Below are positions 16,390-37,500 of a stretch of 64,000 bases of DNA, piece by piece. The notes under the pieces were generated by a model. That model saw only the letters and a program-made list of their open reading frames with translations. It searched no databases and was not told where the DNA came from. The translations under genes were made by a program, and so were the position numbers. This DNA comes from Hyalella azteca (Eukaryota > Arthropoda > Malacostraca > Amphipoda > Hyalellidae), in NCBI RefSeq assembly GCF_000764305.2, contig NW_025939252.1:64230-128229 (forward strand), given 5' to 3'. Numbering within the stretch: position 1 is the stretch's first letter; each line of letters opens with the position of its first letter.

Positions 16390-19300
16390 GTACGTACATT
16401 CATCTTGGAATAAATTAAAAAACATTCTATTGGTTTCAATCATTCAGGTGTTTTTGTCTAATCATTCTAGTACTATTGTACCTTCTTACCACGTGAATGG
16501 TACAAGTATTTTTCGGCTTAAGTAAAGAGCACAAAAAATTATCATAGTTTGGCATTTGTGTCATCCACTTGACTCGCAACAAATGGTCGACTCGTTTTTA
16601 TTTTTACAAATGCGACTCATGTTTTTGGAAATGTATAGCTTCATTTTATTATTATATTTGTTTAAATTTTTGTCTCAAAGATATCTTTTGATGTATTTAC
16701 TTCAGAAGATATATATTGTATGCATTTTATTTGTACCATTTGTTGTATTGTATTATTTATGTGTACTGTGTTTGTCCAGATGCACATGCGACGCTGGCTA
16801 CACGGGAGTCAACTGTGAGAGTTTGTACGTCCCGTGTCGCCCCTCACCGTGTCGCAACGGCGGGATATGTACTCCACATGACCCACTCTCGTACACGTGC
16901 TCGTGTCCTAAAGGTGAGTCATCCACACTCCACATGACCCACTCTCGTACACGTGCTCGTGTCCTAAAGGTGAGTCATCCACACTCCTCATGACCCACTC
17001 TCGTACACGTGCTCGTGACCTAAAGGTGAGTTATACACACTCCACATGACCCACTCTCGTACACGTGCTCGTGTCCTAAAGGTGAGTCGTCCACACTCCT
17101 CATGACCCACTCTCGTACTCGTGCTCGTGACCTAAAGGTGAGTCATACACACTCCACATGACCCACTCTCGTACACGTGCTCGTGTCCTAAAGACGAGTC
17201 GCCCGCAACTGGCAAATTTATTAGCATTTTCTTTAACGTATAATTCCTCTTCGAATTTCTTTCTACATTCTGTTGGTCTCTGAAAATTTAGTATCCATAT
17301 TTTGTTCTTGAAAATTTATCTAAGCTCCCAATATCTATTCATCCCCAATTGTAAATGAATTATATGTTTGGTTGGTCATTTTTTCACCTTAAGCCTAAAT
17401 TGATTGCTTGCGTTGTTCAAAATTGACGTTAAAGTAGCGTCCATTGTTTGTGTTTTCATTGTTAAGGAATAATGTTAAAGTTATTCAGAGCGTGAGTCAA
17501 GACACGAGCCTCTTGAGGGCTCACAGCCACTCAAGTGAGGACAATTCTAGTGAGGCAGTATAAGTGAGGACAATAAAATTCATAGTGAGGACAATGAGAG
17601 TAATAGCAGTACAAGTGAGTGCAATTCACACGAGGGCGTACAATTGATGTAAACAGGCGTCGGCGGCGAGGGGTGCTCAGTGAAGGACTTCTAGCGCAAA
17701 ACATTAAAACTTTAACTTATTCTTCAAATAAAATAGCTTTTATATGAGTAAACTTCTTATATTTATGTATTTCAAAATTCTGTATATTTTGTGCCAAATT
17801 TATAACTGTTGAAAATATTTTTACATTCGAATAAAGTTACTTATTTCTAGGGAAAACTCATTTTACTCTGGAAGTTATCTAAAGCTTCGAAGTGAAAATT
17901 TTTTGCAAGTTAAAAAATATGTATTTTTATTCTGTTGCGTAACGTCTTTGACAACCAAGTTAACATTAACAATAATTGGAATATTTCTTAAGGTACTCGG
18001 TTAGTTGAGAAATTCTCTGTATATGCGAGAATTTAACATATTGTGCCAATGAGATGGCAAAGGCATCAGCGGTTGTATGAAGTCCATACACTCAACTGAA
18101 CGTTAATTTATTTTGTATGTCAGATACTCGTCCTTCACATTCATCGCGATGATTCATTTCCGCCAGTAACTTGAGTAAACAAGCTCGGTGTGAAGCAGCT
18201 CGGTGCGTGAGCTCAGCTTTGACTAGTCTATGCGCACTCCTTCTTATGTTTACTCTGCATTTACAGATGCTACGAGAACACAGTGTAAATTTTTTATTAT
18301 CTTATAAGTATTAACAACGTAGATGAATATATAGACCTATTAGCGCTGCGAAAAGCAGTGCTTTTTCCTCTCTAAGGATTAACAACGTACAATACATATA
18401 CATATAGCTCAATACATACATATAATACATAATACATATAGCTCAACAAAAAGCAGTTTTTTTCCTCACTTATATGTTCACTTAACATGTGTACCGAACT
18501 TAGCAGTCCCAGCCGATACTGGAGCGCCGCCTCCGTATGTAAATGTTTCCCCACTGAGATCATATTTTCCTCTTTGTTTTCAGGTTTCGTGGGAGTGAAC
18601 TGCGAAGAGAACGTCGATGACTGTCACAACCACCTGTGTCAGAACGGCGCCACGTGCGTCGACGGCGTCAACTCGTACACGTGCTCGTGCCCTCCATCGT
18701 TCACGGGCCGATACTGCGCTGCTGACGTGGATGAATGTCTCGTCAAACCTTCGGTCTGCAAGGTGGGTCACTGTCTGCGAGGTGTGTCACAGTCTGCAAG
18801 GTGTGTCACAGTCTGCAAGGTGTGTCACAGTCTGCAAGGTGTGTCACAGTCTGCAAGGTGGGTCGCAAAATCTGCGTCATTTGACCTTCTTGTCTCTTAT
18901 TAATCAGTCTTGGTGAATATCTTGAACAAGTAGTTCTAGTGTAGCAGGGGCCTTCTTACTGCAAGAAATAGTAAACGAGATCGTGGCTTCGTCGTGACTA
19001 CCAAAGACGAGAAAACTGCTACGTGGAGTTAGGTTGCTACGCGTGCGAATTTATGTATTAGAGCTCTTGAACTGTTGGTGAACATTTTCTATCTTTAAGT
19101 GATATTTTCGTTTGCACAAATACTTGCATGCACCAAGAATAAAAATATTGAATGACTTTACTGAGTTATCATTCTTCATTTAATTTACATTTTCTCTGAA
19201 ATCAAATTCCATCTCACGCCAGTTACTCCGGTCAAAACGATATCACTCGCTTCAATGACCACTTTTTAAATTAAACTTTCTTTCAAGTATAACATTGAAT

Positions 19301-22300
19301 GATGGTTTTTTTCGTGTTTTGCCAATAAGATAACAGCTCAAATAACGTTGTTTCGAGTTACTCTACAGTTACTTTCCAAAAATGCGGTGGAAAAACGGCC
19401 GGCCACATTTTAGTGGCCGGCCGTTCCGTAAAATTCGAACATGATTGTTCTTTCTCTTATGTTAACTTCCGAAAAAACGGTGACATGGTTTTGTTTCACG
19501 CTGCTGCCGACTACTAACACGCCGGTCACCCATTTTTCACCGTTTTTTTTCGAACATTGATAACATTTACTCACAGTAATACTATTTACTTACAGTGATA
19601 CCATTTACTTACAGTGAAACCATTTACTTACAGTGAAACCATTTATTTATCTGTTGCACTGCACAGAACAGGGATACCATTTACTTACAGTGAAACCATT
19701 TACTTACAGTGAAACCATTTATTTATCTGTTGCACTGCACAGAACAGGGATACCATTTACTTACAGTGAAACCATTTACTTACAGTGAAACCATTTATTT
19801 ATCTGTTGCACTGCACAGAACAGGGATACCATTTACTTACAGTGAAACCATTTACTTACAGTGAAACCATTTATTTATCTGTTGCACTGCACAGAACAGG
19901 GATACCATTTACTTACAGTGAAACCATTTACTTATCTGTTGCACTGCGCAGAATGGAGCGACGTGCAGCAACAGCCACGGCGGCTTCTCGTGCATCTGCG
20001 TGAACGGCTGGAGTGGCCAGGATTGTTCCGAGAACATCGATGACTGCACGCAGGCCACGTGCTTCAACGGCGCCACGTGCATTGATAAAGTCGGCACATA
20101 CGTGTGCCAGTGCATGCCTGGAACTGTGAGTTGGTGCCATGTGTGGTGGCTTATTTTTCTGTTATTTATTGTGTTATATCTGGTGAGATGACTGCATCAC
20201 TATTACTGCTATATGGTGCCAATTGTTTCTCTGTTATTTATGGTGTTATATCTTGTAAGATGACTGCAGCCGAAGCCATAAATCAGCAGAATTGCTAAGC
20301 TCGTTCATCAACTTTTCCCGACTTGGCAAATCTTGTTTCCAGACTGTCTTACGGCCAGACAGGTTAATAAAAATAAGTTCGTTTAGCAACTTTTCTAAGC
20401 CATTCCTGTTGACAGACTGGCTTGCTGTGTCACTTGGAAGACGCGTGTGCCAGCAACCCATGTCAGGAGGGTGCCATGTGCGACACATCACCCATCGACG
20501 GGGGCTACATCTGCACATGCCCCACGGGGTACACGGGCACGGACTGCACCGACGACGTGGATGAGTGTAGCGTGGGGCCAATCTGTGAACACAACGGAAC
20601 TTGCGTCAACACCCCTGGGTCATTCCGGTGAGTTTATTTGTGTGGTGAGGCGGTATTACTTATTATATTCCATCGAGGTTCATACTTGATATATTCTATC
20701 GATGTCATCGGATAAGGCGATATTACTTAATCAATTTCATCGAGATCATCTGATAAGGCGATATTACTTGATACATTTCATTAAGGTCATCAAATAAAGC
20801 GAACTCATTACTTGATCCATTCTATGGAGATAATTTTTATATCTCAAGTCTATAATTTAATGAAGATGTATCAAATTAGTTGTAGATTGTCTAGTCTTTT
20901 AGACTAGAATTTTACTTTCTAATTAATTTCGTTCCGTATGGTGTAGGCTCCAAAGATTATCCACTTACAGGATACTTGACTTTTTTAATTTCAGGTTGTC
21001 AAGTTTCTGGAAGAACGGAGATTAAAATTTCTACGTTTTAATATTAAGATGTTTTGTGTTGTGTTTTTCAGGTGTGACTGCTCCAAGGGCTTCTCAGGCC
21101 CGCGCTGTGAAATCAACATCAACGAATGCGAGTCGAACCCTTGCCTCAACCAGGGCACCTGTCTGGACGAGCGAGGCGGCTTCCGCTGTGTCTGCATGCC
21201 AGGTGTGTGGCAAATACGACACTACGTAGGCACCACATGGGTAGGACATGGGCATTACATGGGAACCACGTGGGCATCACATGGGTACCACATGGGCACA
21301 AGATGGGTGACACGTGGGCATCACATGTGTACAACATGGGCACAACATGGTAACACGTGGGCATCACATGGGTAACACGTGGGGATCACATTGGCACCAC
21401 ATAGGCAGCACATGGGCACCGCTTAGCCACCCCATACACGATTTAATAATTGCATGAATCCATCATTCTCATTTACAGTAATGGTTTTCCGGTCCTCGTT
21501 CTGCTTGCGTTACTTATGTCGCATTTGATCAACTCTGTAAAGCATATAAATACCTACATCCCATCGAAAATTCTGATTTGATTTACGTATGACCTTTGAG
21601 TATGCTTATTTTAGTTCTTGAAAATTGGTAATCGCTTTAAATTTTTGCTCACATTATGAGTTCTAATGTTACACGTGCTAAGATAATGGACTCTGGTTGC
21701 GCAGGATACACGGGAGTGAACTGCGAGGTTGACATCGACGAGTGCGCCAGCAGCCCCTGCCTCAACCGGGCGCTGTGCGACGACCGCATCGACGAGTATC
21801 ACTGCAATTGCGTGTCTGGGTTCACGGGGCGTCGTTGTGAGATCGACATCGACGATTGCGTATCACAGCCTTGCGAAAACGGCGCAACTTGCGCAGATCG
21901 CGTCAACGATTACGCGTGTCTTTGTCTGCCAGGCTTCACGGGGCGGAACTGTGAGACCAACATCAACGACTGTCTCTCGTCGCCATGCCGTCACGGCCAG
22001 TGCAGGGATGGCAATAATTCATACACGTGTGAATGTCATCCTGGATACACGGGTCTCTTGTGCCAGACTGAGATCGATGAGTGTGCTATCAGACCGTGCC
22101 AAAACGGAGGCACTTGCAAAAATCTCGTGAACGGCTATCAGTGTGAATGTCCGACGGGTACAGCTGGAGTCAACTGTGAGTACGACATCAACGAATGCTT
22201 TAGCAACCCATGTCGCAATGGCGCCACCTGCGTCAATGGAATAAACCAATATTCATGCAAATGCGCCGCAGGTTTCGCGGGTCTCCATTGTGAGATCAAC

Positions 22301-25300
22301 ATTGATGAATGCGCCTCCCAGCCATGCGCGAACGGTGGTGAGTGCGTGGATTTAGTGAATGGCTACAGATGCCTCTGCCCATCTGGATACTTCGACGCTC
22401 ACTGTCTGTCCGACGTCAACGAATGCGCCAGCAGCCCTTGTCGTAATGGTGGAACCTGCTACGATGATGTCAACCGGTTCATCTGCAAGTGCCCTGCGGG
22501 GTACACCGGCCATCGTTGCGACATGGAGATCGACGAGTGTCAGTCGAACCCATGCCAACATGGAGGAACCTGTCGAGATGCTCTTAACTCCTATCAATGC
22601 ACATGCCATCCTGGCTTCAGTGGTCGTAACTGCGAGGCAAACATCGATGACTGTCTTAGTAGGCCGTGTTATAATGGTGGAACTTGCATCGATCTCGTCG
22701 ACTCCTACAAGTGCGTCTGCGATTTACCCTATACGGGGCACGACTGTGAGGTGCGCATGGACCCTTGTTCCCCCAACAGGTGTCGGCACGGGGCCAAATG
22801 CAATGCTATTGCTAATTACGTCGACTTCTTCTGCGACTGCAAGCTTGGATATACCGGCCGCCTTTGTGATGAAGACATTAACGAGTGCACATACTCCCCG
22901 TCGCCCTGCAAGAACGGCGCAACGTGCCACAACACAAACGGCTCGTATACGTGCGAGTGCGCCTTGGGATACGAGGGCCGTGAGTGCACCGTGAACACCA
23001 ACGATTGTGCCGGTAGACCGTGCCTTAATGGCGGCACGTGCCTGGATGGGTTAGGGCACTACACGTGTCTCTGTGTGGATGGGTTCGGAGGTGTCAACTG
23101 TCAGCACGACTTGGACGAGTGCGCCTCGAACCCGTGTCAGAACGGTGCCACGTGCCACGATTACGTGAACTCCTTCACGTGCCAGTGCCCACTGGGTTTC
23201 TCCGGAACCAACTGTGAAGTCAACGATGAAGATTGCACCAAATCATCTTGCATGAATAATGGCACCTGCAAAGACGGCATCAATAATTACAAGTGCGAAT
23301 GTTTGCCAGGCTTTACGGGTTCTCACTGTCAGAATCACGTCAACGAGTGCGATTCAAATCCTTGCGAGAACAATGGACGTTGCATTGACCAGGTTGGATT
23401 TTATACTTGCCACTGTCCTTACGGTTACACTGGAAGAAACTGTCAAACGTACGTGGACTGGTGCGCTACTCATCCCTGCGAAAACGGAGGTAAATGTGTT
23501 CAGAAACGCAACACTTTCAAGTGCGAGTGTCCGCCGAAATGGACGGGCGTTTTGTGCGACGTCGCTACGGTGTCGTGCGCGGTAGCTGCAGCCAACAACA
23601 ATGTCCCTGTGAGTCAAGTGTGTCACAACGGAGGCAGATGTTATGACAAGGACAACTCGCACGAGTGTCGATGTCTCCCTGGATACGAAGGCTCTTATTG
23701 CCAGCATGAAATAAACGAGTGCGACTCGCACCCTTGTAAAAATGGCGCCACGTGTAATGATCACGTTGGTTCTTACACGTGTACATGCCGGCCAGGCTTC
23801 CAAGGCTTCGATTGTGAGTACAATATCGATGACTGCACTCGTAATCCGTGTCGCAATGGTGGAGTGTGTCATGACCTCGTGAACGACGTGCAGTGCTCGT
23901 GCCCGCACGGAACTGTGGGTAAGATGTGCGAGATCAACCCTAACGATTGCTACGAAGGAGCATGTCACAACGGCGGCACTTGCGTGGATAAGGTCGGCGG
24001 TATTGAGTGTCGCTGTCGCCCTGGCTTTGTCGGAGCGCAATGTGAGGGAGACGTCAACGAATGCTTGTCCAATCCTTGCAACAAGGAAGGAACATCAGAC
24101 TGCATTCAATTAATTAATGACTATAGATGCACCTGCAAGCCGGGCTACATGGGCAGACATTGTGACTCAAAAATTGCATTCGACGTCTGTAGCAGTTCTC
24201 CTTGTCGCAATGGAGGAATCTGTGACTATTCTAAAAACAACAAAGAAAGCTGCGTCTGCGCACCTGGATATTCCGGCAAGTACTGCGAGTTTCCGGTCGA
24301 TGCTTGCAGTAATAATACATGCAAACCTGGAGAAATTTGTCGTCCATACCAAGGAGGCTATCAGTGCGGAGGCCCTCGATCCGCCCCTAATTTCTGTGCC
24401 AACAACCCATGTCTCAACGGCGGAACGTGTGAAATATTTGCTAACAGTTATCATTGCTACTGTCGTGATGGCTACTCTGGTAAAAACTGTCAGTCCAAAG
24501 AAAGAGAAGCATTGCAGACTCGGTGTGCAGAAAACAATTGCGAAGCTAAGAAAAGCAACAAGATTTGTGACCCAGAGTGCAACTACATTGAGTGCAATTT
24601 CGACGGTTACGAGTGCTCTATGGGACGCAATCCTTGGGCAAACTGCGATGCCAGTATCAACTGTTGGGAGGTGTTTGCCAACGGTCACTGTAACGAAGAG
24701 TGTAACAACGCAAACTGCCTCTACGATGGTTTAGACTGTCGTCAAATGACAAAAGGAACCTGCAACGACATTTACGACGCTTATTGCTCCAAGAATTACG
24801 CCAACGGATTCTGCGATCAGGGATGCAACAGCTTCGAGTGCAATTGGGACGGACTTGACTGCGATCAAAGTCCTCCCAAGATTCTTGAAGGATCATTGGA
24901 ACTCCAAGTGAATATGTCACCGTTCGAATTGAGGAAGCACAAGAAGCAGTTCTTGCGGCATCTAAGCAACTTATTGGATTCTCACGTCATCCTACGTCAT
25001 GAGGCTGCCGGTGATGAAATGATTTATCCCTATCAAAAAGATGATGTGACCGGTACCATCGTGTTTCTTGAAGTGGACATAAGGAAGTGTGACCAGACGG
25101 GCACTTGTTATGAAAATATAGCAAATGTGGCAAATCACCTCGCGGCCGTTGCTGATAGTACTTTCCCTATTGTCTCCGTCATTGATCAACCTGAACCTTC
25201 CCCTAACAGCTACACCTACGTTATCGTTGGAATTGTCGGCGTGGCCATAATTGCTGGAATTCTATTCATGATCATCACTTCCAACAATCGCAAACGAGCC

Positions 25301-28300
25301 CGAGGAGTCACGTGGTTCCCCGAAGGTTTCTTCACGAAGTACTCGGCCAGTCCTCCTATCTCTGAGCCGCCCCATCTGAAGAGTAATGTCGATGTAGGCC
25401 AAGAAATGCACAACTTTGGTCAGCTTCCTAACCATCTTCCCGAATTAGACATCACAACCGACAGTTGCGGGGACATCGCCTTGCCTTGCGATTTCAAGGA
25501 CTGGAGTGACGACGACAGCGATTTGCCACCAACGAAGCGCTCGAGAAAAGATGGATCGTCTGCTGAGGTACCTGGAGTTCGATCAGAATACGACGACAAT
25601 GATCCTCGTCAGTGGACTAAACAACACCTGGATGCTGCGGACATCAAACATCCTGACGGCATCGAACTAACTCCGCCCCAACTGGAGCAAGAAGTTCCCA
25701 CGACCGCCTCCAACGGGGTGGACCCGAAGGGACCAATGGGTCTCACCCCACTCATGATTGCGTCATTCAGAGGTGGTGGCATGGAAGGTTACACCATCAA
25801 AGAGGATGAGGACAGCTCGGCCGCTGTCATCCAGGAGCTTATTGAACAAGGGGCCAAGCTGAACGCAACCATGGACCGCACCGGGGAAACATCCCTGCAT
25901 TTGGCAGCCAGGTGAGATTCCGCCTCTTCTTCAATGCTTGAGAATGAACTAAGACTCGTGTTGTAGGCGTTCTGCGTATCCCAACACCTGTTGATATAGC
26001 AATACTGTAAGAGGAGCTCACTTCGACAAAGTTTTACGACTTTAAATGTACTAAGCAAGTTTCCTTGTCAACAGATACGCTCGTGCAGACGCGGCCAAAA
26101 AGTTACTCGATGCCAAAGCCGATGTTAACGCGCAAGACGCCACGGGGCGCACACCCTTGCACGCTGCTGTGGCTGCTGACGCTCGGGGTGTCTTCCAGGT
26201 GAACTATTAACTTTAAAGTTTAATTGCTCCTACGATTCAAGTAATGTCAATTTTCCTATCTGTCATCACGAGAATTAGAATACGTACGTCCTCGCAGCCT
26301 TTTAATTCTTATTTACGACAAACTCTTGAACTTGAAACCCCTTTTACCAATACTTTCTGCCCAACTGCCTCAATTTACGCACGCATTTCAAATTTTACTT
26401 TGGTCAACACTGTCTTCAAAAAATATAACTCAGTACTCACAGCAGTGAGTGACCGAGAGCGCATTTTCTCGTCGACGAAAACTTGAGGTCACGGACAGAC
26501 AGACGGACATGGCGAGCACAATAGTGCATTTTTTCCATAAATGAGAAAATGCGCTAAAAATTATCAAAAATTTACTTCCATGTGACTGTGAACAAACATT
26601 TCCATTTATTTCACGAGCAGATTCTCCTTCGTAACCGCGACACGAAACTCGACATGAAAACCAATGACGGAACCACTCCCCTGATCCTGGCGTGTCGGCT
26701 GGCCATCGAAGGCATGGTCGAGGACCTCATCAACGCTGAGGCGGACATCAACGCCACCGACGACGGCGGCAAGACGGCGCTGCACTGGGCCGCTTCTGTC
26801 AACAACATCGAGGCCGTCCAAATTCTTCTCAAACATGGGGCCAATATTGACATCCAAGACAATAAAGTGAGATTACAGATTTTCTTGTCATATCAGAAGA
26901 AAGCCCATGTATTATCAGGATATGGCTGAAATATTTTTTTTAAATTGACTTCATAGTGGTAATGACCCGTAAATAATAATTAATAACAATATATCATTCA
27001 AATTCATAGTGTGGATACAACCATAATTAAGTGCATCTCTTTGGAACGTAGCTTGCACCAATTAGCCTGAATAGATCGTTATTTTTCCGTTAAATTGTGA
27101 TTAATTCGTACAATTAATTGGGCTCAATAAGTGTATGATTTTGGTCTGCTTAAGTTAGTGCTCAATATTAACTTTTATTTTGTTTCAGGACGAAACTCCT
27201 CTATTTCTGGCGGCTCGAGAAGGCAGTTACAACGCATGCCGCTTACTCTTGGACCATTTCGCAAATCGTGACATCACAGACAACATGGAGCGTCTACCGG
27301 AAGACATGGCGGTGGAACGCTACCACCACGACATCGTCAAACTATTGAGAGATCACCACCCTCGTTCCCCTCAACTGCAGCCCCTCTCACACGCCCCTCC
27401 TAATCTATCTCAGCATCACTTGGGGGGGCAGCATCCTGCAGTTGCAGCCCAGAGTATACCTCACCGGTCCAACACCGCACCACGTAGTAAAGCAAAGCGA
27501 CCGAAGTCACAAATAATGGCGCCTCCTATTAATCCTAACGATTTGATTCCCGATAACAATGCAAGTGTCAAACGAAGTAGCAGCGTCAAGAAGAAGAGGG
27601 ATCCTCCGCCTCCTCCTGTCTCCTCTGAGATGCCGCCCAACTCTCTGGACGGTCACCGTATGATGTTCAAAACGGAGATGAGTCCAGAATTTTCTGGTCC
27701 TTTGAGCATGCCTCAGTTTAGCGAGCTCTCGTTGAAACAGTCGAACCCTGGCTTCCACGACTGCCTAACTTCAGTTACGTCATCCGGGAACATGCATCAG
27801 CAACAGCAGCAGCACCAGACCCTTGATAGTAGTGATCCTTTTAACTTTGTTCAACTTCTCAACAGTGGCGGCACTCCTCCCGCATCCCTTGCTCCGCAGC
27901 CCGTCGTTCATCAGAGACAGCAGTCAATGCCCGCGGCCTTCCCCCCTGTCACTAGTCAGAGCTACAATCCCCAGCAGCAGCTGCATCACACCCACGCGTC
28001 CCCACCACCTCCCAGAGGTGCACATTCAGCGCATACCTCCCCACAGTCTCAGTCTATACCTCATTACTCGATGCATTTACAAAATCCTAGCCATCCTACG
28101 TCACCTAATAAACTTAGACCTCCTCTGCCGACTTCACCCACACACTTAGCTGTTCTTAGGTTAGCCACTGCGTCGTCAGGGTATGATTTTCCATCTACGT
28201 CTTCTGCTCAAAACCTACAATCAGACGAGCGACAGCAACAACAGCAGCTTGTTATGGCGCAACAAAGGCACAACGGCCAGCAGCAGCCGCAACCAAACGC

Positions 28301-31506: not shown

Positions 31507-34500
31507 GTGAGTTTGAAAAACAAAATAAATAATCAACCCCTTTGAGTTTGAAAACTCTCTTCTAAGTACTATAACCGTCAATGAAATATACTAGGTACTG
31601 TCTACTGATAATGATATAGGTTGTCACTAAGAACTCAGAAGGTACTGCACTTACCTTGCTGCTTGTTGCTATACTAGTACTAGTCTGGAAAAGTCCTATT
31701 TTTGTCTGAAATATCGCGGCTCTAATATCATATAATTTCAGTAGGTATGAAATCTCGCGGCTCGAATGTCATAAATTTTTCTTTGATTAAAAAATCGCGG
31801 TTTGCACTTTGCAAACATGTCATTTCATAAAATTTTCAACTTCCGCAATCACTCGTAGAAATGGAATCACGGCTGGCAAATCCATAAAACCACGGCTCGA
31901 AAAATTCAGTCGCGGCTCGCCAAGTAGATATATTCCATACTAGTACTACTACTAGTAGCTATAAACTATAGTACTGGTCAGACTCAGACCTACAATTTTT
32001 AGGTTTGGTCTTTGGATTCAAATCATTCAATGGATTGCAACTACCTTTAGCTATTTAACAACTTACAAATTTTTTATTTGAATAATCATAATGTGTCACA
32101 GTTTTAGCTACTAATTTTAAGTAGGTAGCTGATCATTTATTTTGGAGGCTGGCAACAATATACTACAAGTATTATGACAAGGTTAGTAGCATTAATGATA
32201 ATTACTAGGAATATTGTACAGTTTTTTTTTACAAAATATGTTAAAAACTTTAATATAATGTGTGATTAAAATTTTAATTTCAGTTATAAAATTATTCATT
32301 AATCCGCTGAGGCTGTGGCCTGTTGTGGGTGATACAAATTATAGTTGAACATGGCTATCTATCCTATCCTATCCACTGTGCAGAGAGTGAACGAAGATTT
32401 AAAGACCAATGGCGACGCATTATCGGCAAAATTTTTGCCTTCAGAAGATCTTGCCGACACATTTAGATTGAAATTCTTGCATTTAATATATTTCTCAGTC
32501 TTCAAGTTCGTCATTACTCAGCGTAAATGGCTTTTCATTAAAAATTACCCGGCGACGCATCTTTAAAATGGCCGGCAACGCTTTGGGCTTAAAAATCCAT
32601 ATATTGGCGATGCTGCATCCACCCTCTGCATAGTGGTATCCTATAATATTGGAATTGCCTGCAAGAATTTGCTTTTTTTTTTATTTGCTCTGAAGAAATA
32701 TGGCAAAGGCTGTAACTTGTAAGAAAAAATAGAATTGACCTTTCTAATTAAAAAAAAAGTTGGATTTGGCTGCAAGATTTTAAATTTATAAAAAATATAT
32801 TACGTTGAACTTGAAGCTACAAGATTTAAGTAATAAGTAGAAATTTTTAAATCTTGAAGTCTATTTTCATTAATTTATTAATTTGAATGAAATAAATAGA
32901 ATTTAATATTTAGATCACTTGATTGCTTACATTGCAAGTTTATCAGAAATTTGAAAGCAAAGAAAACTATTGAAAAAATTTCCATATCTAATGAAGAAAA
33001 ACATTTTAAAGTCCAGCTGAATCATCAGACATCAGTTTTGTATTGTAATTTTTCTACTTGTTTGTAAAATTTTGTGGCTTTAAAGTGACAAATTTTCAAT
33101 ACATTTGAAATTTTGTAGCCCGATTGTGATTGTGCACTTTCATTAACAATTAGATAGAGGGGCAATTCATTGAGCGGAAATCTTTCTTTTCCAAAATTGG
33201 TGAAAACGCTCAAATCGCAGCCCCTAAGGTAGATGTTTTCCATGCTAGCATCAGTTCAAAAACCTAGAACAAAAGTACAAACAATTAGCAAAATAATATC
33301 AATATTGAAAGTATTAAAACATAGATTATCAAATTAACACCAATAAACAAAGTAAAAATGAGTAGACAAACCTATCTATTTACAATTTTGATAGCATATG
33401 AACAGTAGGTGGCATTTAAACTAGGCTTTTGTTTAAAAATCTTCAGGGAGGCTAATGGAACTAAAAAAACCCTAATACAATATACAATAATATAAATACT
33501 TTTTTATTCAGAATGAGGCTGATCAGAATATATTGGCTGCCTTTAATAGAAGTGATCAATTTCACCAACAAACTGAATAATACAGGTCTGGCGCCTTTGT
33601 AATTATAATGATTAAATAAAACCTTACGTTCTGATGGTCTGACCAGCATTATATGTTTTTTTTTATTGGTTAAAAGTTAGGTAAAGTATTTGGTAGGTAG
33701 TGACTTTGTGTGTCTTTGTTAATAAATAAACCACATGCAAACACTTCCATCTTGGATTGATTTGATACATTAATTAATTTGAAATGAATATCCTGTGTTT
33801 CCTATTTTAGTAACTGGAACTTAGGTCTTTGTCTTTATTTTTTTTCAGCTTATTCATGCTTCATTTATGTTTTTTTTATTGCAGGAGAAGGCATCCCATT
33901 GAAAATGCCCTCACTGTCACCAACAATGGTTGAAGGCAAGATTGTCAAGTGGTTCAAGAAAGAAGGAGATCCTATTGAACCTGGAGATGTACTTTGTGAT
34001 ATTGAAACTGACAAGGCGGTTGTTTCTTTTGAAACTGATGAAGAGGGAACACTAGCAAAAATATTGGTAAGCAAGCATTGTATACCATGTGTCTAAGTAT
34101 TCTTGTGTGGACTGTATTTCTTTAATGTCAAAAATATTTATTATTCTTCCAGTTTCAATGTATTAATATGGTTTAAAAATTTATATTAAACATGATTTGA
34201 AAGCTACTATTTGATGACTTGTATATGAATTTTTGTTATAGCAGCTATATTGTTCATACAATTTGTTCCTCAATTTTCACAGGTGGATCAGACAAATGAC
34301 TTGGTCAAGATAGGCACTCTAATAGCTGTGCTAGCTCCTGAGGGTGAAGATTGGAAGACAATTGAAATTCCTGTTGATGCCACTTGCTCCCCGCCTTCTG
34401 CACCATCTGTTAATGTGGATGGCATTGCTATTGCCGTCACTCAACCTTCTTCAGGCATTGCTACATCTGATATCAGGTCATTCATGCTATGTGATGTAAG

Positions 34501-37500
34501 CCTGTTAGCATGCCTCATCATACTTGACAGCTCAATTTTATGTTTCACAACAAAAAATTATCTTTACCCATATATGAGCTTGCCAATTCATCCCCAAAAT
34601 TAAAATCATCACTAGCTTCATATAGAAAGTATCAAAATCTTGCTCTCTGCTCTACAAAATGTACCAAAAATTAATCTCCTTATAAAAACATGTTAAATTT
34701 TGCCTACAAGTATGTTGCTATTTAATTTTTTTTTCTGCAGGAAGTTTGGGCCTTCTGTACGTCTTTTACTTCAAGAGTATGGGCTATCAGCTGATCAGAT
34801 TGTAAAGTCAGGACCTCGTGACGTTCTACTCAAAGGAGACGTTCTCAATTACATCCAGTCTACTGGTGTGAAGAAAGTCAAGAAAACTGGTTGGTGTTAC
34901 GGCATATGCTTTTTATATCCTTCCATTCAATTTCAACATAACCCAAAGTTTATTTCCGTAATGATATATTTGTATTCAAGCATTAATTGTCATTAATCAA
35001 GAACTAAGCAAGCACAATTATACATCCGGGCTAAAAATTTTGTAAAACTTCATTTCTCTTCTTGCAGCAGAATCACCTGTTAAATCCACTCCAGCTGCAG
35101 CTGCCAAAGCTGCTGAGCCTGAAGCTATTCCGTCTACAGCTACCTACTCTGATGTTGATGTCAGCAATATGAGACGTGCTATTGCTAAGCGGCTCCTCCA
35201 GTCTAAAGTTAGTGGTTTTATTTTATCCAATGTAATGGCTAACCATCAGTGTCATGAGCGCTTGATTTTTATTCATGAAAATACAAATGCAAAAAAGACT
35301 TCAAATTCCCATTATGTGAAACCTCGACTCAATTTAATGTAATTAAAAAAGCCAGGAATGTTACATTTTTACATTTGTTTAGTAAAGTGGTTAAAGTATA
35401 AAAGGGTAATTTTTCAACAGAGCGGTACGGCTCACTCATACGCGACGATGGACTGCTGCATTGATGCGCTGCTCGCCCTGCGCAGAAAGTTGAAGAAGGA
35501 TGGCATTGCTGTGAGCCTCAATGACTTTGTGGTGAAGGCCGTTGCCATGTCACTACTTGATCACCCTGCACTGAATAAGGTCTGGCGCGGCGCCAATGTT
35601 GTCACTAATATCTAGCCTAAGTTTTATCAATATTATTGAAGCCTATTCCATTTTGATAAATAATGAATTTCATTGTAAATTATTTCAAATGAAAAAAATT
35701 TCAATCTATAATGATTTATTCGTTGTTAACAAGGTCTGGCGCGGCACCGAAGTTGTCACTAATTTATCAATACTACCTAAAATTTATCAATACTATTGAA
35801 GCCTATTCCATTATGAAAAATAATGAATTTCGTAGTATATTATTTCAAATGACAAAAATTTCAATATATAACAGCATATTCGTTGTCAACAAGGTCTGGC
35901 GCGGCGCGGAGGCGGTTGTGTCGCCTTCAGTTGATGTGAGCGTAGCCGTCGCCACTCCGTCCGGCCTCATCACTCCCATCGTTCGGGACGCGGATCGTCT
36001 TGGCGTCAAGGAAATCTCAAACACGATCAGGGAGTTGGCAGGCAGAGCCAAGATCAACAAACTCAAACCTGAGGAGTTCGAGGGCGGGTCTTTCTCGTAC
36101 GCATTTCTTGGATTTTTTCTTTTTTTTTTGCGATGCATTTCGACTATAAATTTCTAATTCAAACTTTAATGCAGTTCAGATTTTTTCATCTGAAAAAGTT
36201 AGTTATTTTATCACTATTGAATAGTAGCTTACGTTATAATGATTCACTGATTAACTTTGAATCAGTTTAATTACAATTTTTTTATGGTGAATATTCTACT
36301 TCGGTGATCATTACCCTTTTACTTCATATTTATTTCAGATAAATGTTTAATTGCCTCATATTTATTCATTATGAGTAACTTGTATTCATGGAAAATATTC
36401 TAAATTTCCCATGTATTGTAATCTTTTATTTTTGTGCAGAATTTCAAACCTGGGAATGTTCGGCATCCGCGAGTTTACTGCGGTGATCAACCCTCCACAG
36501 TGTGGCATCTTGGCCGTGGGGAGCGGCGCTCCTGTACTTAGTAAGCTTCTGCCATGTATTAATTAATTATCAAGCTTATGTTTTCTTGCATAACACTTAT
36601 TCTAAACTGGCTGCCACTCACTGCACTTTTCTGGCTTAATTTTTATTCTATCATCCTCTAGATTCCTGTCTGAAGCGCTAGTAAACCTTATACTACTACC
36701 ACCCTATCATCCTCTAATTAACTGGGCATGTTTTCAATTGTATTATACTAATGTCGCTAAATAGTTAGAATATCTAAACTGGTCTTGGTATATTCGAAAG
36801 CTGTTACTAACAAGCATCTGAAATATTAGCAAGCTTCATTTGGTGTCGATGGCTTTTAGCGGCAGATTGTTTTAGAACAAAAATAAAAGCTTGTTGTATA
36901 GGATACCTTGGGCTTTTCCAAGTTATTTTTCACTGCTTGTATTGATACCTGAAATGATGATGGTTGATCACCACAGCGTGCAAATAAATGAAATAATATA
37001 GTATTTAAATAAACTCAAGTAAATGCAATGAAAATTGAACAATTTGTACATATATAGGCAACTAGTCAAAATTTGAAAAAAAAACTATTACAAAGCATTC
37101 CAGATTTACAAAATTTTAAACTATCATTCTGTGGCGAGGAGAGAAATAAAAAGTAAACCCTTTATCTGTTATCAAAACTTGATTTCAAGTTAAATCTGAT
37201 TGGTTCGGTAAAGATGCTACTCACGTATAGAAAATTAATTTAAATTTGCTCTAACGTTGAAGTAACATCCCAAGGCCGTGGTCAATCAACTGTGATAAGT
37301 GTATGACTTATGGAACGCACTACCACGTATAGTTGTTCACTGTAAAATAACTTGAATGCGATTTACACTTTTGCCACACGCCACCCTCCTGATCAGTGAC
37401 GGCATTCTGGCGTCCAGCATCAAATTACTTAATTAACAGCATTTCAATTACTTAATTAGCTAATTATTAGCGTATGAAGTTTTTGAACAAACACGAACTT

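Follow-up and report, generated by a model that had tools for sequence, protein, structure and literature searches.

Introns that arose by tandem duplication have been published in Drosophila, where, according to the excerpts available of PMC2891723, nine of 31 near intron pairs were assigned to sliding and five to tandem duplication. The excerpts of PMC4974935 provide ATP2A1, the fission yeast genes SPOG_01682/SOCG_00815 and the potato RdRp as comparison cases; the potato duplication crosses an intron-exon boundary, and AGGT repeats are present in the fission yeast genes. The neointrons of Daphnia pulex, as described in the portion of PMC4202315 consulted, have direct repeats of 4-17 bases, a staggered-break mechanism with growth by later breaks is proposed for them, and the young introns have a high AT content. 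Intron 6 of PDHX, a metabolic gene of the small freshwater crustacean Hyalella azteca, belongs with these published cases of intron gain. It is unusual in still displaying three borders and two bodies, together with what may be a remnant of the first duplication. Among the matches listed for amphipod intron gain, crustacean introners, PDHX introns and Hyalella azteca introns, no title or abstract opening was about intron 6.

As in the tandem-duplication introns of PMC4974935, so far as the excerpts go, the borders of intron 6 copy one AAG/GT exon segment (the slash marks the splice border) and the coding sequence is unchanged; as in the fission yeast genes of that paper, several repeat units lie within one intron. 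It differs from those cases in that only about 17-52 nt of each unit look exon-derived, the rest being AT-rich, and in that the large unit would have been duplicated afterwards. With the young introns of D. pulex, likewise a crustacean, it has in common direct repeats at opposite ends, an insert without a recognized source and later internal repeats, but its repeat equals or exceeds the range given in the consulted portion of PMC4202315, and its units are already 12% divergent. Like the near intron pairs of Drosophila in the excerpts of PMC2891723, it lies 18 nt, a multiple of 3, and in the same phase, from an apparent intron in insect-like open reading frames (ORFs). There is also a likeness to stwintrons and recursive splice sites, as the partial texts of PMC7138796 and PMC8469720 present them, since the internal site would allow removal in one or two steps. 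Unlike stwintrons, the PDHX units stand side by side with abutting AAG/GT rather than nested, and their two-step use is putative.

The gene is located at 33.9-37.9 kb of the window, which is the whole stretch of 64,000 nucleotides that was analysed (contig NW_025939252.1, positions 64,230 to 128,229). Its spliced product is P0001, annotated at NCBI as pyruvate dehydrogenase protein X component isoform X2 [Hyalella azteca]; its domains are of the 2-oxoacid dehydrogenase acyltransferase and lipoyl types. The joined exons and P0001 are the same except for one residue, where intron 4 ends in CAGCAG. This is a tandem acceptor (35065-35070), the alanine provided by its upstream acceptor is absent from P0001, and PDHX isoforms differing by one residue may be formed there. 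At intron 6, excision of 314 nt restores an in-frame coding sequence equal to the NCBI-annotated protein, in agreement with the perfect read-through described in an earlier note on this DNA. Since P0001 joins LNK to VWRG, the junction is supported on the basis of the annotated protein. In translation, an early stop ends the protein if unit 1, unit 2 or both are retained.

Table 1. Positions of the intron 6 features of PDHX in the window
Feature	Position	Strand	Remarks
PDHX exon 6	35421..35579	+	ends ...LDHPALNK/; identical here to P0001; exon map
PDHX intron 6	35580..35893	+	314 nt, GT-AG, phase 0, two head-to-tail units
PDHX exon 7	35894..36096	+	ends GGSFS/; exon map
Unit 1	35580..35733	+	154 nt; repeat analysis
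Unit 2	35734..35893	+	160 nt; 87.6% identity to unit 1 over 153 aligned columns
First border copy (intron donor)	35574..35597	+	AATAAG/GTCTGGCGCGGCGCCAAT; 20/24 bases in common with third copy
Internal border copy	35728..35751	+	AACAAG/GTCTGGCGCGGCACCGAA; acceptor abuts donor, possible zero-length exon; 21/24 in common with third copy
Third border copy (acceptor and exon 7 start)	35888..35911	+	AACAAG/GTCTGGCGCGGCGCGGAG
Exon 6 stretch TGTCACTACTTGATCA	35548..35563	+	proposed source of exon-6-like piece in units
Exon-6-like TGTCACTAAT, unit 1	35600..35609	+	both units carry TGTCACTAAT
Exon-6-like TGTCACTAATTTATCA, unit 2	35754..35769	+	14/16 vs exon 6; overlaps unit-2-specific internal repeat
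AT-rich remainder, unit 1	35610..35727	+	118 nt; body GC 23%; no second genomic place found
AT-rich remainder, unit 2	35770..35887	+	118 nt; body GC 25%; no second genomic place found
Candidate branch site TATAAT, unit 1	35707..35712	+	read by eye
Candidate branch site TATAAC, unit 2	35867..35872	+	read by eye

The division into two units, with the lengths that the earlier note had assigned to them, is borne out by the repeat analysis (Table 1). Within the 153 aligned columns, 10 transitions and 9 transversions separate the units (K2P 0.136), and there are 8 gap columns. The junctions at 35579/35580, 35733/35734 and 35893/35894 read AATAAG/, AACAAG/ and AACAAG/, each followed by GTCTGGCGCGGC, so that the border AA(T or C)AAG/ reported earlier is present at both ends of the intron and between its units. 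Over 24 positions, any two of the three border copies have 20-21 bases in common. The donor and acceptor borders of intron 6 share 17 contiguous bases (3 upstream and 14 downstream); border sharing in the six other PDHX introns measured (2-5, 7 and 8) comes to 0-4 bases in total. With at most 3 mismatches, the border pattern has three matches in the window, compared with a mean of 0.03 in 100 shuffles. A 15-mer of the border, AAGGTCTGGCGCGGC, occurs three times in the 519-Mb Hyalella azteca genome, and all three occurrences are in the intron 6 region. When the 142-nt body of unit 2 was searched against the same genome with E up to 10, only unit 1 and the query itself matched; this DNA search passes over very common words, so the single-locus result is not absolute. 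The unit bodies have a GC content of 23-25%, the six other PDHX introns 25-34%, and exons 6 and 7 53-60%. Unit 2 alone has a 15-nt internal direct repeat, AATTTATCAATACTA, at 35761-35795 with a spacing of 20 nt. Elsewhere in the gene, a short stretch of intron 1, ACTGAATAATACAGGTCTGGCGC (33572-33594), resembles the border between exons 6 and 7. This match was rejected: its score of 27, next to 25 for the next best in the window, is not clearly above chance.

Intron positions were compared in exon-sized PDHX-like ORFs taken from contigs, the eukaryote genome searched being that of Hyalella azteca. The ORFs come from one set of all 83 matches and from the best 120 of 1311, a choice that favours long matches and would hide short fragments. 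Among the matches listed, 167 of 198 profile-matched fragments cross LNK/VW without an insertion of at least 5 residues, and the other 31 fail this read-through test mostly through a later start. The 21 ORFs classed as exon-like end within 6 residues of the conserved 3′ end of exon 7, although some may be prokaryotic or cut by the end of the contig. None of the 21 listed breaks at LNK/VW; 20 cover the point and all 20 read through. Seventeen of the listed ORFs are unbroken, while four (P0160, P0209, P0215 and P0221) break 18 nt downstream, with an apparent phase-0 intron exactly at +18 nt, after VWRGAE/. P0160 is thrips-like (86% to Thrips palmi), P0209 is mealybug-like (78% to Planococcus), and P0215 and P0221 are aphid-like (80-84% to Macrosiphum and one other record). 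In P0215 and P0221, the first residue of the in-frame insert is V and the last two are FQ, which is what translation of an unspliced GT...CAG intron would give. Among the matches listed, the +18-nt intron is found only in thrips-like and hemipteran-like ORFs and is absent from the arthropod-like P0206, P0208, P0153 and P0163. The animal-like P0153, P0155 and P0163 appear to start at (S or R)VPEVN, which puts their break some 21 nt upstream of LNK/VW, and the residue Q before it could represent a CAG acceptor. Breaks are thus seen on both sides of LNK/VW in the sampled ORFs and none at LNK/VW itself. Since none of the 21 breaks there and 20 read through, the position of intron 6 looks new relative to this sample, which has no named amphipod. 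The earlier note had read the intron as a tandem duplication and probably young, a reading to which an intron at the same position in distant arthropods would have been contrary. No such intron was found in the exon-like ORFs. The intron is young in a relative sense only, its units being 12% apart.

The origin favoured here, tentatively and at a little under even confidence, is that intron 6 is a new intron position that arose by local duplication of an exon segment spanning AAG/GT, followed by AT-rich insertion and a later duplication of the unit. About 52 nt, made up of 33 nt of the present exon 6 and 19 nt of exon 7, would have been copied in tandem. The first GT would then have served as donor and the second AG as acceptor, with no change to the protein. 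Some 120 nt of AT-rich DNA without a recognized source would subsequently have entered the young intron. A single duplication of the whole unit with its own border repeats would have followed, for which unequal exchange or slippage between the repeats is the probable cause. A separate insertion must be assumed because uniform decay does not leave an intact border next to a remainder that cannot be aligned. We infer the order of events, the length of 52 nt, the insertion and any use of the internal border. Both borders, with their 17 contiguous shared bases, are copies of one exon segment containing AGGT, and removal of the intron restores the coding sequence, as the AGGT model has it.

The first bases of the units carry the exon-like signal. 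Beyond the shared 12-mer, similarity to exon 7 at the protein level is equalled by 0 of 500 shuffles for unit 2 and has P 0.022 for unit 1; at the DNA level the values are P 0.022 and P 0.044, respectively. Under another scoring, the exon 7 extension of unit 1 is not significant (P 0.23). In a breakpoint model, the likeliest end of the similarity is nt 14 at 5-16% divergence and nt 19 at 20%. In both units, the exon-7-like segment (19 nt) is directly followed by a stretch resembling TGTCACTACTTGATCA of exon 6, which begins 32-33 nt upstream of the junction. The order of exon 7 and then exon 6 is the one predicted by tandem duplication of a 52-nt exon segment around AAG/GT, and it lends the tandem-duplication idea moderate support after several tests, less for unit 1. 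The chimera score of exon 7 plus exon 6 is 12 for unit 2, a value reached by one of the 1500 noncoding controls and none of the 279 coding ones, and 8 for unit 1, matched by 55 of 1500 and 79 of 279. For the columns identical in both units, the chimera fit is equalled by 22 of 3000 noncoding controls; among coding controls, 8 of 565 equal it when the final 80 nt of exon 6 are used and 15 of 557 when all of exon 6 is. The P values for the exon-6-like columns common to the units are 0.007-0.027. This support covers the first 28-36 nt of the units and is weak in unit 1. Several points count against the duplication: the exon 6 match is short, several tests preceded its discovery, and where it is best it coincides with the internal repeat specific to unit 2 (family D3), which overlaps the exon-6-like piece and so weakens its last bases as evidence.

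The whole unit as an exon copy and sole source was not established. For unit 1, a single shuffle in 100 and 14 of 600 GC-matched real noncoding segments align to the exon as well as the whole unit does; for unit 2 the figures are 8 of 100 and 103 of 600. When the comparison with exon 6 is anchored at the acceptor, the similarity falls short of significance (P 0.35-0.54), a second anchored test gave none, and AAYAAG is all that clearly recalls exon 6 there. In local tests, the body of unit 1 gives P 0.23 with exon 6 and P 0.85 with exon 7; for the body of unit 2, the exon 6 match is reached by 0 of 600 controls and exon 7 gives P 0.89. With wider controls, 13 of 2004 noncoding segments and 45 of 724 coding ones match exon 6 as well as unit 2 does, and the match of unit 2 counts mainly because of its predicted place. 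A tblastn hint that the unit body resembles a stretch of 10 residues (E 0.049) was not upheld by the anchored tests. The tandem AGGT duplication proposed in the earlier note stands in part: copies of one exon segment supply both splice sites, with exon-6-like sequence after exon-7-like, while derivation of the entire 154-160-nt unit from the exon is not established. The same note had set the AT-rich body apart from simple exon duplication, and 118 nt of each unit are without demonstrable exon homology. The exon-like piece would amount to about 17-52 nt per unit, and the AT-rich rest is probably separate in origin.

A de novo intron at a staggered double-strand break, where an overhang of 17-24 nt was filled on both sides of an AT-rich insert and the unit was duplicated later, is somewhat unlikely as the origin. 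It explains in one step the passage from an intact border to an unrelated body, and short direct repeats do surround the insert. The border repeat (17 contiguous bases; 20/24) lies at or above the range of 4-17 bases for Daphnia neointrons, and the insert has no recognized source, as in most of them according to the consulted portion of PMC4202315. However, exon-6-like sequence after the border copy is not predicted by such a break unless the filler was partly templated from the nearby exon.

Relocation, or sliding, is unlikely. Here, an ancestral intron 18 nt downstream, after VWRGAE/, would have been displaced when the upstream exon end was copied onto exon 7 and splicing moved to AAG/GT, so that intron 6 would now open with 18 nt of former exon. 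The four insect-like ORFs with an apparent phase-0 intron at that very distance, inside the span of about 32 nt and in the common phase looked for in a near intron pair, agree with this, as do the units themselves, which start VWRG(A or T)(E or N) and continue with GT. Yet the +18 intron is confined to thrips-like and hemipteran-like ORFs, other arthropod-like ORFs being without it, and the end of the exon 7 similarity is not fixed at nt 18, the best estimates being 14 or 19. Joining the end of exon 6 to exon 7 without the intron requires an RNA template or a precise deletion, and the exon-6-like stretch is left unexplained. In a fuller version, which we consider improbable, an old arthropod PDHX intron moved 18 nt upstream when a break was repaired with spliced RNA or cDNA as template and the final exon 6 codons were thereby placed on exon 7; the abandoned exon end would still be readable at the unit starts, and the doubled unit would have created a zero-length exon and two-step splicing.

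It is also improbable that an old intron at the same position had its acceptor region (intron end plus exon start) duplicated and its original donor lost. The GC content of the bodies does resemble that of the six other PDHX introns, the excerpts of PMC4974935 report the potato duplication across an intron-exon boundary, and arrays of donors exist in the Notch gene of the window. Such an origin nevertheless requires exact loss of the original donor, and none of the 21 sampled exon-like ORFs, though no named amphipod is among them, has an intron here. An introner or other transposable element carrying its own intron is very improbable and was rejected for want of dispersed copies: even though aquatic organisms are reportedly 6.5 times likelier to hold introners (PMC9860276, in the part available), the genome search, which skips common words and is to that extent not absolute, places the two body copies and the border 15-mer at this single locus, and the repeat analysis lists no inverted repeat that would link the two ends of a unit.

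The Notch gene has its own repeats at splice sites. A 56-nt tandem array at 16871-17200 begins in an EGF exon and enters the intron; it has five strong donors AAAG/GTGAGT in succession (16912-17136), and its sixth copy reads AAAGACGAGT. At the end of a second EGF exon, a 19-nt array (18754-18864) has six donors, AAG or GAG/GTGKGT, 19 nt apart (18761-18856). These two are the only TRF arrays in the window with a period of at least 10 and AGGTR in the consensus on either strand. They indicate that duplications across splice sites do occur in the window. Tandem repeats are abundant in the window, with 52 overlapping TRF rows, so the overlaps of Notch arrays with splice sites need no special cause. 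An open stretch of about 4.25 kb (21659-25912) has Pfam EGF in 23 stretches together with Notch LNR, NOD and NODP.

The donor of intron 6 fits 6 of 9 consensus positions, the other PDHX introns 5-7. The acceptor, called weak in the earlier note, is the sole AAG acceptor among the seven PDHX introns measured, but it is not the poorest in pyrimidines (10 of 17, as against 7 in intron 5, with 10 in intron 8), and both units have a short T-rich stretch and a candidate branch site 22 nt before the acceptor. The inner border is nearly the same sequence as the outer ones and could therefore be recognized by the spliceosome. The sequence suggests that splicing could take out intron 6 as a whole (35580-35893) or, in principle, in two steps via the internal AAG/GT; successive removal of unit 1 and then unit 2 would leave zero extra bases.

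Introns whose origin can still be read from their sequence are few. With three copies of the founding border, two bodies and a candidate 52-nt trace, intron 6 makes models of intron birth, growth and position change testable on one gene. How a new intron position may arise via local DNA duplication can be read from it unusually well.
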